The translations under genes were made by a program, and so were the position numbers. 64,000 nt of DNA, taken from positions 930,001 to 994,000 of the forward strand of contig NZ_CP100762.1 of assembly GCF_024296665.1 (NCBI RefSeq), given 5' to 3'. The DNA comes from Salinilacihabitans rarus (GTDB lineage Archaea; Halobacteriota; Halobacteria; Halobacteriales; Natrialbaceae). Of the stretch, positions 52,992-60,982 are shown piece by piece. Position 1 is the stretch's first letter, and each line of letters opens with the position of its first letter. A model generated the notes under the pieces. It made no database searches. It was not told the DNA's origin and saw nothing but the letters and a program-made list of their open reading frames with translations.

Positions 52992-53849
52992 TCAGAACAG
53001 GCCGACGACGAATCCTGCCCCCATGATGATGAGGACGGCGGCGGAGAACGCCGGGAGGTACGGTGTGTACTGCTCGACTCTCTCCTCGGAGTGGTGGTAG
53101 CCCGCAATCAACAGCATCGTCAGTCCGACGATACCCACGATGACCGTGAGAGCGTACGCACTCATCAGTTCGATGCAGTAGTTCGACCCGGCACAGAGCG
53201 CGATGATCTCGAACTCCTCTTCGTGTGCGAACCCGAGGACGAACGCGAACCACGCGATGCCGAGAAGCCCCCGGTCGGCGGCCTCGTCGAGGTCATCGTG
53301 TGAGTGAGCGTGCCCACCGACGAACGGGACGTACCGTTTTAGACGGGAGGGGAGTCCACCGCCGTCGTGGTCGTGCGAATGGCCGTCGTCGTGGTCGTGC
53401 GAATGGCCGTCGTCGTGGTCGTGCGTATGGTGGTGATGCTCGTCCGAATCGTGTTCTTGGTCGTCCGGGTGTCCGTGATCGTGGTCGTGGTCGTTCCCGT
53501 GGGAGTGGCCGTGGAAGTACTCGCGGATGCCGAGGCCGATCAGCAGGACACCGGCCACGAGACTGACCGGCCCACCGATCCGGAAGCCACCGAGTATCGT
53601 GATCGGTTCGTTGACCTGTGTGAGGTCGAAGTAGCCCTTCGCGTAGAAGAACACTCCCACCATCGCAATACTGCTGACGAGGTGGCCGACGCCGATGATG
53701 AAACTCGCCGCGAACCCGTAGGCCCACTTGTTGGCTTGATCGAGCGCGTACGAGGCGGCAACTGGCCAGCCGTGGCCCGGTTCGAGGCCATGAACGGCAC
53801 CGAGTGCGACCGCACCTACGAGCGGACCGAGCAGTTCGTTGGGGAACAT
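52992..53849 (-). CDS. Nickel/cobalt permease with a His-rich loop (NicO/RcnA-like)
   Basis: A 285-aa protein with six hydrophobic segments. AVHGLEPGHGWPVAASYALDQ in helix 1-2 has the H-x-x-x-x-H type metal motif of the family. A central cytoplasmic loop of about 70 residues is packed with His and Asp (HSHGNDHDHDHGHPDD and more). FAHEEEFEIIALCAGSN comes after it. The divergent nikR gene points to nickel. Direction (import or export) is unclear, since RcnA-type proteins export and NicO proteins import. Confidence 0.85.
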   Translation of the reverse strand: MFPNELLGPLVGAVALGAVHGLEPGHGWPVAASYALDQANKWAYGFAASFIIGVGHLVSSIAMVGVFFYAKGYFDLTQVNEPITILGGFRIGGPVSLVAGVLLIGLGIREYFHGHSHGNDHDHDHGHPDDQEHDSDEHHHHTHDHDDGHSHDHDDGHSHDHDGGGLPSRLKRYVPFVGGHAHSHDDLDEAADRGLLGIAWFAFVLGFAHEEEFEIIALCAGSNYCIELMSAYALTVIVGIVGLTMLLIAGYHHSEERVEQYTPYLPAFSAAVLIIMGAGFVVGLF

Positions 53850-57747: not shown

Positions 57748-57814
57748 GCGATCAGAATTGTACGCCGCCTACAAAGGTCTTATGCTACTCTAGGACCAAC
57801 CCGGAGGCAGAACG

Positions 57815-58219
57815 ATGCCCGACTCGATGATCGAACAACTGCAGCGGGACATGGAGTGTGAGGGGTTGCTGGAGTGTTTCCACGGGTTGAAACAGCTGGA
57901 CAAGGAGTGTTTCCGGGTGCTCGTCGATAGCGACGAGCCGTTGACGATCGACGAGGTCGCCGAGGCGGTCGACCGCGAGCGCTCGACGGCCTACCGCTCG
58001 ATCCAGCGGCTGCTCAAGGCGGGGTTCATCCAGAAAGAGCAGGTCAACTACGATCAGGGCGGCTACTACCACGTCTACTCGCCGACGGACCCGTCACAGA
58101 TCGCAGACGACATGCAGCGGCTGCTCAACGACTGGTACGCCAAGATGGGCCAGCTCATCCAGGAGTTCGAGGACAAGTACGAGCAGGCCGACGAACGCCC
58201 CGTCGCCGTCGACGGCTGA
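57815..58219 (+). CDS. Helix-turn-helix regulator with N-terminal Cys cluster
   Basis: A 134-aa protein. Cys15, Cys21 and Cys32 lie in the N-terminal 35 residues (EQLQRDMECEGLLECFHGLK onward), then a winged helix EPLTIDEVAEAVDRERSTAYRSIQRLLKAGF. A helical C-terminal region (ADDMQRLLNDWYAKMGQLIQEF) probably dimerises. The clustered Cys residues near the DNA-binding domain, and the neighbouring thioredoxin, TusA and SQR genes, suggest a thiol or sulfide sensor. The link is inference. Confidence 0.82.
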   Translation: MPDSMIEQLQRDMECEGLLECFHGLKQLDKECFRVLVDSDEPLTIDEVAEAVDRERSTAYRSIQRLLKAGFIQKEQVNYDQGGYYHVYSPTDPSQIADDMQRLLNDWYAKMGQLIQEFEDKYEQADERPVAVDG

Positions 58220-58247
58220 CCGGTCCGTTCGAGAGCGCGGTTCGCGA

Positions 58248-58682
58248 TCAGGCGAACTGGTCGATCAGCCCTTCGAGCGTCCCCCGGTCCTGAACGCCGA
58301 CGAGGCGTTCGACCGGTTCGCCGTCGGCGTAGAGCACGAGCGTCGGGACGCCCTGGACGCCGAGCTGTCGGGCGAGGGTCTGGTGGGCGTCGACGTCCAC
58401 CTTCGCGACCGCGGCGTCGGTCTCGGCCGCGAGCGCCTCGACCGTCGGTTCGAGCATCTGGCAGGGGCCACACCAGTCGGCGTAACAGTCGACGAGGACG
58501 ACCCCGTGGGTTTCGACGACGGATTCGAGGTGGTCGCCGCCCTCGATCGGAATCGGCTCGTCGGGGGCGCCGGCGTCGGTCGCGGCCGCCTCCGACCCGT
58601 CGCCGCCTTCGAGGCGGTTCATCAGTTCCCGTTTCTTTTGCTCCCTGATCCGTTCCCGTTCCTCGTCGAGCGTGTCGCTCAT
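58248..58682 (-). CDS. Thioredoxin
   Basis: A 144-aa protein from ATG 58682. An N-terminal charged helix (DEERERIREQKKRELMNRLE) of about 45 residues precedes the thioredoxin fold. VVLVDCYADWCGPCQMLEPTVEALAAE has the WCGPC active site, and VQGVPTLVLYADGEPVERLVG has the cis-Pro loop. It converges with the HTH regulator gene, 28 bp apart. Confidence 0.93.
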   Translation of the reverse strand: MSDTLDEERERIREQKKRELMNRLEGGDGSEAAATDAGAPDEPIPIEGGDHLESVVETHGVVLVDCYADWCGPCQMLEPTVEALAAETDAAVAKVDVDAHQTLARQLGVQGVPTLVLYADGEPVERLVGVQDRGTLEGLIDQFA

Positions 58683-58903
58683 CGCGTCGACGTACGGGCC
58701 GAACCGACATAATGGTTGTGTGTCCGGCGAGCAATATAGCCCGGGCGGCGCGTCCCGGATCGACGGCCGAGCGGGCCCGGTATTCGATTCGATCGCGGAT
58801 GCGCGCACGGAGCGACCGAACGCAGTCGCCTTCCGGGTCCCGTTCCGTGGCGGTCGAACCGACGGGACGCCGTCGTTCGTCCGCCGCTCCGCCGTTTCCC
58901 ACT

Positions 58904-58926
58904 ATATTGGAATACCCGCACAATAT
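58904..58926. promoter_or_regulatory. Inverted repeat over the promoter of the sulfide operon
   Basis: ATATTG (58904-58909), 11 bases, CAATAT (58921-58926). The right arm merges with a TATA-like ATTATATG (58926-58932), about 38 nt before the TusA ATG. A repressor bound here would block TBP. A third CAATAT is at 58732-58737, in the thioredoxin promoter side. Confidence 0.5.
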
Positions 58927-58968
58927 TATATGGGGTCGGCGCCTACCATCAACCGGAGACCGTACACG

Positions 58969-59211
58969 ATGACCGAACCGCAACTCGACACCGACGTAAC
59001 GATCGACTCGCGCGGCGCGTCCTGCCCGGGGCCACTGATGGACCTCATCGGGAAGGTGAAGACGCTCGACCCCGGCGCCGTCGTCGAACTACAGACCTCG
59101 ACGCGCAACTCGACGACTGACGTCCCCGAGTGGCTCGACGAGGCCGGCCACGAACTCCTCGAGATCGAAGAGCACGACGACTACTGGAGCATCTACCTGG
59201 AGGTGTCCTGA
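58969..59211 (+). CDS. TusA-like sulfurtransferase
   Basis: An 80-aa protein. DVTIDSRGASCPGPLMDLIGKVKTLDPG is the TusA/SirA signature with the persulfide-carrying Cys in C-P-G-P. It accepts and passes sulfane sulfur. The first gene of an operon with SQR and DUF1641; its stop overlaps the SQR ATG (TGATG). Confidence 0.9.
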   Translation: MTEPQLDTDVTIDSRGASCPGPLMDLIGKVKTLDPGAVVELQTSTRNSTTDVPEWLDEAGHELLEIEEHDDYWSIYLEVS

Positions 59212-60350
59212 TGCACCGAATCGCCGTCGTCGGCGGCGGGACCGGCGGGACGGTCCTCGCGAACCGGCTCGCGAAGGAACTGCGGTCCGAGATCGACGCC
59301 GGCGAGGTGGAGGTCCGGCTAATCACCGACGACCCGGACCACGTCTACAAGCCGACGTTCCTGTACGTCCCGTTCGGCAAGAAGACGGTCGACGACGCGA
59401 AGCGACCGATCGCCGACCTGCTCGACCGGCGCGTGACCCTCGAAATCGACGAGGTCGCCGGCGTCGACACGGAGGCGAAGAAACTGCAGTTCGCCGACGG
59501 CTCGCTGCTCGCCTACGACCAGCTCGTGCTGGCGACCGGGGCCACCCTCGAACCCGAGGCCGTGCCGGGGCTCGCCGAGGGCGGGCACCACTTCTACGGC
59601 CCCGACGGGGCCGAGCGCCTGCGGGACGCCCTCGCCGAGTTCACCGAGGGCCACCTCGTGTTGAGCGTCGTCGGCGTGCCGCACATGTGCCCGGCCGCGC
59701 CCGTCGAGTTCGTGCTGATGGCCGACGCGTGGCTCCGCGAGCGCGGCCTGCGCGAGGACGTCGAGCTTACCTACACCTACCCGATCAACCGCGCCCACGG
59801 CCTCGAATCGATCGCCGACTGGGCGACCGACCTGTTCGAGGAGCGGGACATCAACCTCGAGACGTTCTTCAACGTCGAGTCGGTCGACCCCGACGCGGAA
59901 CTCATCGAGACGGTCGAGGGCCGGGAACTCGACTACGACCTGCTGGTGGCCATCCCGCCCCACGCGGGCAGCGACTTCGTGGTCGACGCCGGCCTCGGCG
60001 AGGACGGCTGGGTCGACGTCGACCGCAACACCCTCGAGGCGACGAACGCCGAAGACGTCTACGCGATCGGTGACGTCGCGGACGTGCCGACGAGCAAGGC
60101 CGGCAGCGTCGCCCACTACGAGGCGGGCGTCGTCGCCGACCGGATCGCCAGCCGCGCCCGCGGCCTGCCGCCGACGGCGACCTTCGACGGCAAGACCGTC
60201 TGCTTCCTCGAAGCCGGCATGGACGAAGCCACCTTCGTCGAGTTCAGCTACGGCGAGGAGCCGTACGTCCGCGAGCCGTCGAAGCCGCTGCACTGGGCGA
60301 AACTCGGCTACAACGAGTCCTACTGGCTCACCGCGAGGGGGTTACTGTGA
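59211..60350 (+). CDS. Sulfide:quinone oxidoreductase-like FAD enzyme
   Basis: A 379-aa protein. FAD site IAVVGGGTGGTVLANRLAKEL, LVLATGATLEPEAVPG, EDVYAIGDVADVPTSKAGSVAHYEAG. Catalytic-type Cys at C160 (VPHMCPAAPVEF) and C331 (KTVCFLEAGMDEA). Only these two Cys are present, whereas many SQRs use three. SQR oxidises H2S to sulfane sulfur or polysulfide and gives electrons to membrane quinone. With TusA before it and cytochrome bd after, a sulfide-removal role is likely. Confidence 0.88.
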   Translation: MHRIAVVGGGTGGTVLANRLAKELRSEIDAGEVEVRLITDDPDHVYKPTFLYVPFGKKTVDDAKRPIADLLDRRVTLEIDEVAGVDTEAKKLQFADGSLLAYDQLVLATGATLEPEAVPGLAEGGHHFYGPDGAERLRDALAEFTEGHLVLSVVGVPHMCPAAPVEFVLMADAWLRERGLREDVELTYTYPINRAHGLESIADWATDLFEERDINLETFFNVESVDPDAELIETVEGRELDYDLLVAIPPHAGSDFVVDAGLGEDGWVDVDRNTLEATNAEDVYAIGDVADVPTSKAGSVAHYEAGVVADRIASRARGLPPTATFDGKTVCFLEAGMDEATFVEFSYGEEPYVREPSKPLHWAKLGYNESYWLTARGLL

Positions 60351-60982
60351 CGTCGGACGCGGAGTACGCGACCGAGGACGCCGCGGAGCCGGACCTCGAG
60401 GCGCTCGTCGCCGAACACCCCGAGGAGGTCGCCCGGTTCATCGAACGGCTCGGCGTCGCAAACGAGTTGCTCGACACCGCGGAACTCGCCACGGCCGCGA
60501 TGGACGACGACATGGTCCAGGAGCTGTCGGGCACCGCGACGAACCTCGCCGCCGCGGCCGACGGGCTGGCGACCGAGGAGGTGGCGAAGGTCGGCGAGGC
60601 GACCGGCGAGAACGCCGGGGACCTGGCCGACGCGGTCGAGACGCTCGCCCGCCTGCAGCGGTCGGGGACGCTCGACGACCTCGCCGCGCTGGCGGACCTC
60701 GCCGGGCTCGCGACCGGCGCGATGGACGACGACATGGTGGTCGACCTCGCGGCGACCGGCACCCGGCTTGGCGAACTGGCGGACACGGCAGCCGACGACG
60801 ACGTCGCCGGGACGCTCGCGTCGCTGCTCTCGGCGGTCGGGGAGGCGGGAGCCGAACCGGTCGAACCGGTCGGCGCCATCGGACTGGCGCGTGCGCTCCG
60901 GGACCCCGAGGTCCGGCAGGGACTCGGCTTTCTGGTCGCCGTCGCCCGCGAGACGGGCGCCAGCTTCGACGGGAAGCGGTGA
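60347..60982 (+). CDS. DUF1641 protein
   Basis: A 211-aa all-helical Ala-rich protein. FIERLGVANELLDTAELATAAMDDDMVQELSGTATNLAAAADGLA is repeated later as DLAGLATGAMDDDMVVDLAATGTRLGEL. The end (RDPEVRQGLGFLVAVARETG) is the DUF1641 region. These proteins often follow SQR or formate dehydrogenase genes and may help assembly or membrane docking. The GTG start overlaps the SQR stop (GTGA). Confidence 0.85.
   Translation: MTSDAEYATEDAAEPDLEALVAEHPEEVARFIERLGVANELLDTAELATAAMDDDMVQELSGTATNLAAAADGLATEEVAKVGEATGENAGDLADAVETLARLQRSGTLDDLAALADLAGLATGAMDDDMVVDLAATGTRLGELADTAADDDVAGTLASLLSAVGEAGAEPVEPVGAIGLARALRDPEVRQGLGFLVAVARETGASFDGKR

Follow-up and report, generated by a model that had tools for sequence, protein, structure and literature searches.

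The window is a stretch of 64,000 nucleotides from Salinilacihabitans rarus, whose genome is a single 3.62 Mb contig. Toward its end lies a small gene for a helix-turn-helix (HTH) protein, together with a thioredoxin gene and a cluster that begins with the sulfur carrier gene tusA (Table 1). The second gene of this cluster codes for a flavoprotein resembling type III sulfide:quinone reductase (SQR), which scores 346.8 bits (E 1.5e-103) against the NCBIfam model NF049943, where the model cutoff is 525. The named relatives of the HTH protein are haloarchaea. In another part of the window, a gene with a NikR C-terminal nickel-binding domain (PF08753, 53956-54351) adjoins a gene for a histidine-rich membrane protein (52992-53849), the latter judged by eye, and the two are possibly a nickel uptake pair.

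Table 1. Genes and candidate regulatory elements at the locus, in window coordinates
Feature	Position	Strand	Remarks
HTH regulator gene	57815-58219	+	134 aa, TrmB-family, single winged helix, Cys15/Cys21/Cys32
Thioredoxin gene	58248-58682	-	PF00085, E 7.3e-25; convergent with the regulator gene
tusA, TusA sulfur carrier	58969-59211	+	PF01206, E 5.9e-19
SQR-like flavoprotein gene	59211-60350	+	PF07992; NF049943 below cutoff
DUF1641 protein gene	60347-60982	+	PF07849, E 1.3e-13; final gene of the tusA-SQR cluster
Candidate operator, regulator's own promoter	57758-57774		TTG-N11-CAA, then a CTTATG TATA-like element
Candidate operator, thioredoxin promoter	58716-58736	-	TATTG-N13-CAA; CAATAT at 58732 is the left arm
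Candidate operator, tusA-SQR promoter	58904-58926		ATATTG-N11-CAATAT, exact
Predicted TATA-like element	58924-58931	+	TATTATAT, read from the sequence; overlapped by the right arm of the operator

A preliminary description of this DNA had pointed to an inverted repeat, ATATTG-N11-CAATAT, over the TATA element of the tusA promoter. The repeat is there and exact, and is the sole match in the window at up to two mismatches, while 100 shuffles yield 0.01 on average. Its right arm continues into TATTATAT upstream of tusA. The half-site CAATAT occurs four times in the window against a shuffle mean of 1.08, and three of these lie at this locus, at 58732, 58904 (minus strand) and 58921. The one at 58732, on the thioredoxin side, had also been remarked upon, and it proves to be one arm of a variant site with a spacer of 13, read on the minus strand from 58736 to 58716, immediately upstream of the thioredoxin TATA element. 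Similar sites are present in other thioredoxin promoters. The reading of the 58732 element as a stray half-site was rejected, given its place as the left arm of this N13 site. The operator in the regulator's own promoter is an additional site, absent from the earlier description.

A shared candidate operator and its promoter geometry

Operators were counted in 150-nt upstream regions; upstreams identical in their last 80 nt were counted once, and genes with a listed same-strand gene ending at most 60 nt upstream were left out. Conservation of the site, proposed earlier as a check, is borne out, with the N11 spacing retained before orthologous tusA genes and in many further promoters. TTG-N11-CAA stands upstream of tusA2(-dsrE) in 55/59 cases (shuffled mean 2.2), of tusA1 in 7/9 (0.2) and of thioredoxin in 50/91 (2.3), rising to 60/91 for thioredoxin when either N11 or N13 is accepted. 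The regulator's own promoters (n=145) hold 54 N11 and 79 N13 sites, with either one in 132 against a shuffled mean of 6.9 and neither in 13. The spacings N10 and N12 reach at most 5/59; other spacings that recur in tusA2 promoters are N9 (20/59), N19 (15/59) and N16 (13/59). Kinship among genomes inflates these raw counts. When upstreams more than 60% alike are collapsed, the site is found in 28/32 tusA2, 39/78 thioredoxin and 7/8 tusA1 upstreams, the regulator promoters hold 38 N11 and 47 N13 sites among 96, and N10, N12 and N14 stand at 0-1.

The operator extends to further gene families. A set of 467 upstreams had served as a 'control' and gave 30 N11 sites, against 5 for N9, 4 for N10, 7 for N12, 10 for N13 and 2 for N14; it is an unclean control, with many of its members from Usp, DUF7512, OsmC, DUF302 and CoA-disulfide-reductase-like genes. 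Counted separately, the N11 site is present in 50/55 upstreams of DUF7512 membrane proteins, 37/65 of Usp, 11/21 of DUF302 and 5/5 of OsmC, and in only 2/12 of the CoA-disulfide-reductase-like genes. These counts weigh less than those for tusA, thioredoxin and the regulator, because the families were chosen after matches had appeared in the control. The Usp proteins have an N-terminal two-cysteine motif of the TCLECL type (L053:8977-9822 and relatives), and in the 37/65 upstreams the operator stands beside the TATA element. The DUF7512 protein measures 49 aa, and its site in L005 is at G000:C1:2813198.

Two sulfur gene families depart from this pattern. TauE promoters hold the N11 site in 0/84 cases. 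Promoters of the fusion of a metallo-beta-lactamase-type domain with rhodanese (MBL-rhodanese) hold TTG-N21-CAA in 39/77 and N11 in 4/77, the N21 spacer being ten bases longer; this may reflect another mode of binding or a pair of overlapping sites. An N21 example is found in the region G000:C1:2816772-2816792 (L005).

The genome carries a second copy of the regulator, 92% identical, at G000:C1:2811425-2811826 (L005:5423-5827). The larger sulfur cluster around this paralogue includes TauE/SafE, a PHO4-family transporter, two YeeE-type halves (Sulf_transp and DUF6691), the MBL-rhodanese fusion, TusA and DsrE_2, and the tusA promoter nearby reads TTATTG-N11-CAATAC. Exact TATTG-N11-CAATA occurs three times in the genome, twice at the two tusA promoters; around the third (G000:C1:1649056, L038) a codon filter recognized no gene within 3 kb. 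The looser TATTG-N11-CAA is found at 16 places by our count, against 9 control matches, and four of the 16 belong to tusA1, tusA2, a second thioredoxin and a DUF7512 gene. Across 41 genomes the table of counts sums to 121 places for the exact form, compared with 18 for its reversed control. A perfect TTG-N11-CAA also lies at G000:C1:2575562 (L044), just before the start codon (1535) of an SBF-family transporter gene (PF01758), which is a possible further target.

The position of the site relative to the core promoter is regular. In the regulator promoters, 35/54 N11 sites have the TATA-like element beginning 5 nt after CAA, and 75/79 N13 sites have it beginning 3 nt after CAA, so that the TTG arm is held at a constant distance from TATA. 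In 50/55 tusA2 promoters, CTTWW begins 21 nt ahead of TTG, which places the site over the predicted transcription start. With the site on BRE/TATA at some promoters and over the start at others, TTG-N11-CAA would most simply be a repressor site. The view that the motif is no more than a core promoter element (BRE plus TATA) was discarded on three counts: the TTG arm stands 11 nt from the CAA arm, the spacing is specific, and the whole tusA2 site lies downstream of TATA.

The regulator, its cysteines and its genomic company

The regulator matches the TrmB family (PF01978) over residues 19-93 with E 1.1e-16 and 60.8 bits, against a cutoff of 25.6. TrmB is its best Pfam match, HTH_20 matching below cutoff only, and the NCBIfam models Sta1 (73.4 bits, cutoff 80) and Lrs14 (43.5, cutoff 90) also stay below theirs. 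It is not of the two-domain, sugar-sensing TrmB type: at 134 aa, it gave no C-terminal sensing family in a Pfam-type search. Among 30 of 102 records of plasmid-borne homologues, none has a specific protein name, most being called 'helix-turn-helix domain-containing protein'. The AF2 model has a pLDDT of 82 and finds its best PDB match in 3r0a. Its winged helix is well modelled and its residues 1-20 poorly, with the cysteine-bearing N-terminal helix at about pLDDT 49, and we therefore make no geometric claim for the cysteines.

Three cysteines had been described as lying just before the winged helix. Their positions, 15, 21 and 32, are right, but Cys32 falls in a model helix (27-38) within the domain itself. 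Lack of conservation had been named earlier as a ground for refutation, one that Cys15 and Cys21 escape and Cys32 does not. Cys15 and Cys21 are present in 141/141 distinct haloarchaeal proteins (numbered 17 and 23 in two), and the C-x5-C pattern is kept in 20/20 distant homologues at 28-38% identity, whereas Cys32, found in 127/141 of the haloarchaeal proteins, is not invariant. Cys21 aligns with Cys17 of MM_1094 (PDB 3R0A), taking a construct numbering offset that appears to be 3, and Cys15 is without a counterpart there. Taken comparatively, the operator, the regulon and the constraint on Cys15 and Cys21 are well supported.

At E <= 1e-20, the regulator is found in 127/146 genomes of its order. 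Its neighbourhood was studied at 142 loci, namely the window, the paralogue, 60 loci chosen by hand for spread from among those genomes, and the 80 best of 343 matches in named genomes, which became 133 once near-identical regulator copies were removed. At least one sulfur gene lies near the regulator in 106/133 loci and no listed one in 27/133. The genes are TauE (81 loci), MBL-rhodanese (71), the YeeE halves (62 and 65), TusA2 (60), DsrE (51), SQR (13) and TusA1 (9), and thioredoxin is present in 84/133. DsrE is encoded in 108/127 genomes with the regulator and in 1/19 without it, a comparison uncorrected for phylogeny in which the one exception is a 64% complete genome. Relatives of MBL-rhodanese occur in 7/15 regulator-lacking genomes, six of them at 39-51% identity, so the MBL-rhodanese gene does not need the regulator. 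Overall, the sulfur-gene neighbourhood supports a sulfur role for the regulator.

The HTH protein is very probably the binder of TTG-N11-CAA, judging from the site in its own promoter, the correlation with its recognition helix and the absence of the site at OxsR-like promoters. The correlation comes from 20 distant homologues, hand-picked within the same phylum but beyond the order: of those with the recognition-helix sequence RERST, 7/11 have the N11 site in their own promoter, and of those without it, 0/9. The seven (L242, L243, L245, L246, L250, L255 and L259) belong to other families of the phylum. Among OxsR-like paralogues, the own promoter has the N11 site in 0/25. It is improbable that the sites belong to another regulator, with the HTH gene simply among the genes it controls. 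The 4/11 RERST-bearing homologues without the site would fit this, as would the comparative nature of the link between protein and site, but the HTH gene is repeatedly preceded by the site, both within the haloarchaea and in further families of the phylum, and the site tracks the recognition helix.

Outside the haloarchaea, some homologues (L248 and L241) lie in operon-like runs with glutaredoxin-like, thioredoxin and radical-SAM-like proteins, the glutaredoxin and radical-SAM names being assigned by eye. As these runs contain thioredoxin, the regulator's link to thioredoxin may predate its link to sulfide oxidation.

A candidate thiol switch and its rivals

We consider it fairly probable that the HTH protein is an autoregulated repressor of a haloarchaeal reactive-sulfur and thiol regulon, released from DNA when Cys15 and Cys21 react with sulfane sulfur. 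The earlier proposal of a sulfide sensor that thiol modification could release from its sites is in part supported. The parts of this reading differ in strength. On the promoter geometry, the protein likely acts by repression, and a thiol switch at Cys15/Cys21 is likely as well. The case for sulfane sulfur as the main signal is only slightly better than even.

The process can be pictured as follows. A homodimer would bind TTG-N11-CAA, in its extended form TATTG-N11-CAATA or in the N13 variant, with Cys15 and Cys21 near an N-terminal dimer interface; the dimeric state and the interface position of the cysteines are suggested by analogy with OxsR and MM_1094. The site adjoins or overlaps BRE/TATA in the promoters of the regulator itself, thioredoxin, tusA1-SQR and Usp, and at tusA2-dsrE it lies at the expected transcription start, and in both arrangements a bound dimer would block initiation. 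Upon sulfide oxidation, persulfide or polysulfide would rise, and Cys15 and Cys21 would either be persulfidated or be joined through a di- or polysulfide bridge. The modified dimer would then leave the DNA, allowing TusA, DsrE, SQR, thioredoxin and stress proteins to be made, and thioredoxin could reset the switch.

The main rival is general oxidant sensing with activation. Here the protein would work as OxsR does, with hypochlorite or peroxide forming a disulfide at Cys21 (and Cys15), stronger DNA binding and activation from upstream of BRE/TATA. OxsR Cys24 and the window's Cys21 align to the same cysteine of MM_1094, Cys17, and the genes that OxsR activates have its motif upstream of BRE/TATA (PMC9426492, in the passages on OxsR). 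The stronger binding of OxsR under hypochlorite and its dual role mean that the sign of regulation here could be the opposite of repression. The site is carried by thioredoxin, OsmC and Usp promoters, and these targets fit general thiol stress equally, which counts against a specificity for sulfide. However, the tusA2 site covers the expected transcription start (50/55), an unlikely place for an activator; sulfur genes abound around the regulator; and the regulator falls outside the OxsR-like clade. We regard this alternative as unlikely. Improbable, too, is a response of the cysteine pair to a soft metal or metalloid, with the sulfur genes induced as part of metal-thiol stress: the perfect site before the SBF-family transporter gene speaks for it, but only two cysteines are invariant, with no invariant third ligand cysteine, and most targets are sulfur or redox genes.

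A broader form of the sulfane-sulfur repressor reading has about an even chance of being right. It would make the protein a TrmB-family C-x5-C sensor of sulfane sulfur that is older than the haloarchaea and has one operator code, read both upstream of TATA and over the start, with sulfur carriers, sulfide oxidation, thioredoxin, OsmC, Usp, DUF302 and DUF7512 proteins as its targets. A regulator with a defined operator, two constrained cysteines and consistent sulfur-handling targets across most sampled haloarchaea would account for their sensing of sulfide products. It would also give DUF302, DUF7512 and Usp proteins a regulon to belong to, and through HVO_1360 it would make a sulfur-sensing switch accessible in a model species, Haloferax volcanii.

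Comparison with known regulators

The archaeal thiol-switch regulators known before OxsR were the ArsR-family proteins MsvR and SurR, and OxsR is one TrmB-family case, as its own report recounts (PMC9426492). OxsR (HVO_2970) is a thiol-based regulator with a single cysteine, Cys24, and the motif CGGnCGnGCG; its DNA binding increases under hypochlorite, and it acts as an activator as well as a repressor (PMC9426492). Like the window protein, it has a single TrmB winged helix and a cysteine at the position of Cys21. The two differ in that OxsR has one cysteine and a CG-rich motif, whereas the window type has two conserved cysteines and a candidate site with AT-rich arms. The window protein is 28% identical to the OxsR-like protein of its own genome. 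In a tree of 52 rows (18 window-type, 14 of 25 OxsR-like and all 20 distant proteins), the window-type and OxsR-like groups separate with support of 100/99 and 100/100, the bootstrap being not fully settled and the OxsR-like rows (L003 and relatives) assigned by length and cysteine pattern. The identification of the regulator as OxsR was rejected on this separate clade and on its two invariant cysteines, Cys15 and Cys21.

A probably closer relation is to HVO_1360 of Haloferax volcanii (UniProt D4GXQ1), a small arCOG02242 protein, 28% identical to OxsR, that has C15 and C21 and was suggested as a possible heterodimer partner of OxsR (PMC9426492). It shares the TrmB family and both cysteines with the window protein, which most likely belongs to the HVO_1360 family, the likeness being matched by published description. 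In the passages of PMC9426492 that describe it, HVO_1360 is a possible OxsR partner only, with no operator, regulon or sulfur link; the words TusA, sulfurtransferase, sulfide, rhodanese and DsrE are absent from the main text of that paper, the only open-access full text in which the locus tag HVO_1360 was found. In both sequence and fold, MM_1094 (PDB 3R0A) and AbfR2 (6CMV) are among the window protein's nearest solved structures. The 3R0A structure has intersubunit C6-C17 disulfides, and it is C17 to which OxsR Cys24 was aligned (PMC9426492); of C6 and C17, only the latter matches a cysteine of the window regulator (Cys21).

Sensing of sulfane sulfur is described in bacteria. Cysteines of MarR-family regulators are modified by it (PMC11211675, in part), and SqrR and sHdrR/SoxR are sulfane-sulfur regulators of sulfur oxidation or stress genes (parts of PMC12423496 and PMC9995734). 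All of these belong to protein families different from the TrmB family of the window regulator. A search of the open-access full-text literature listed no sulfane-sulfur regulator of the TrmB family in archaea. SurR and MsvR set the archaeal precedent for release from DNA by a thiol switch, as set out in sections of PMC7278568. MsvR of methanogens binds its own promoter and loses this binding when oxidized (PMC7278568); it is a 5-Cys factor of the ArsR family for which peroxide was the oxidant tested in those sections, whereas the window regulator is of the TrmB family. In SurR of the Thermococcales, the cysteines are oxidized by elemental sulfur, upon which DNA binding is lost and sulfur genes are derepressed (PMC7278568). 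SurR does so as an ArsR-family protein with a CxxC switch, while the window regulator is a TrmB-family protein with C-x5-C.
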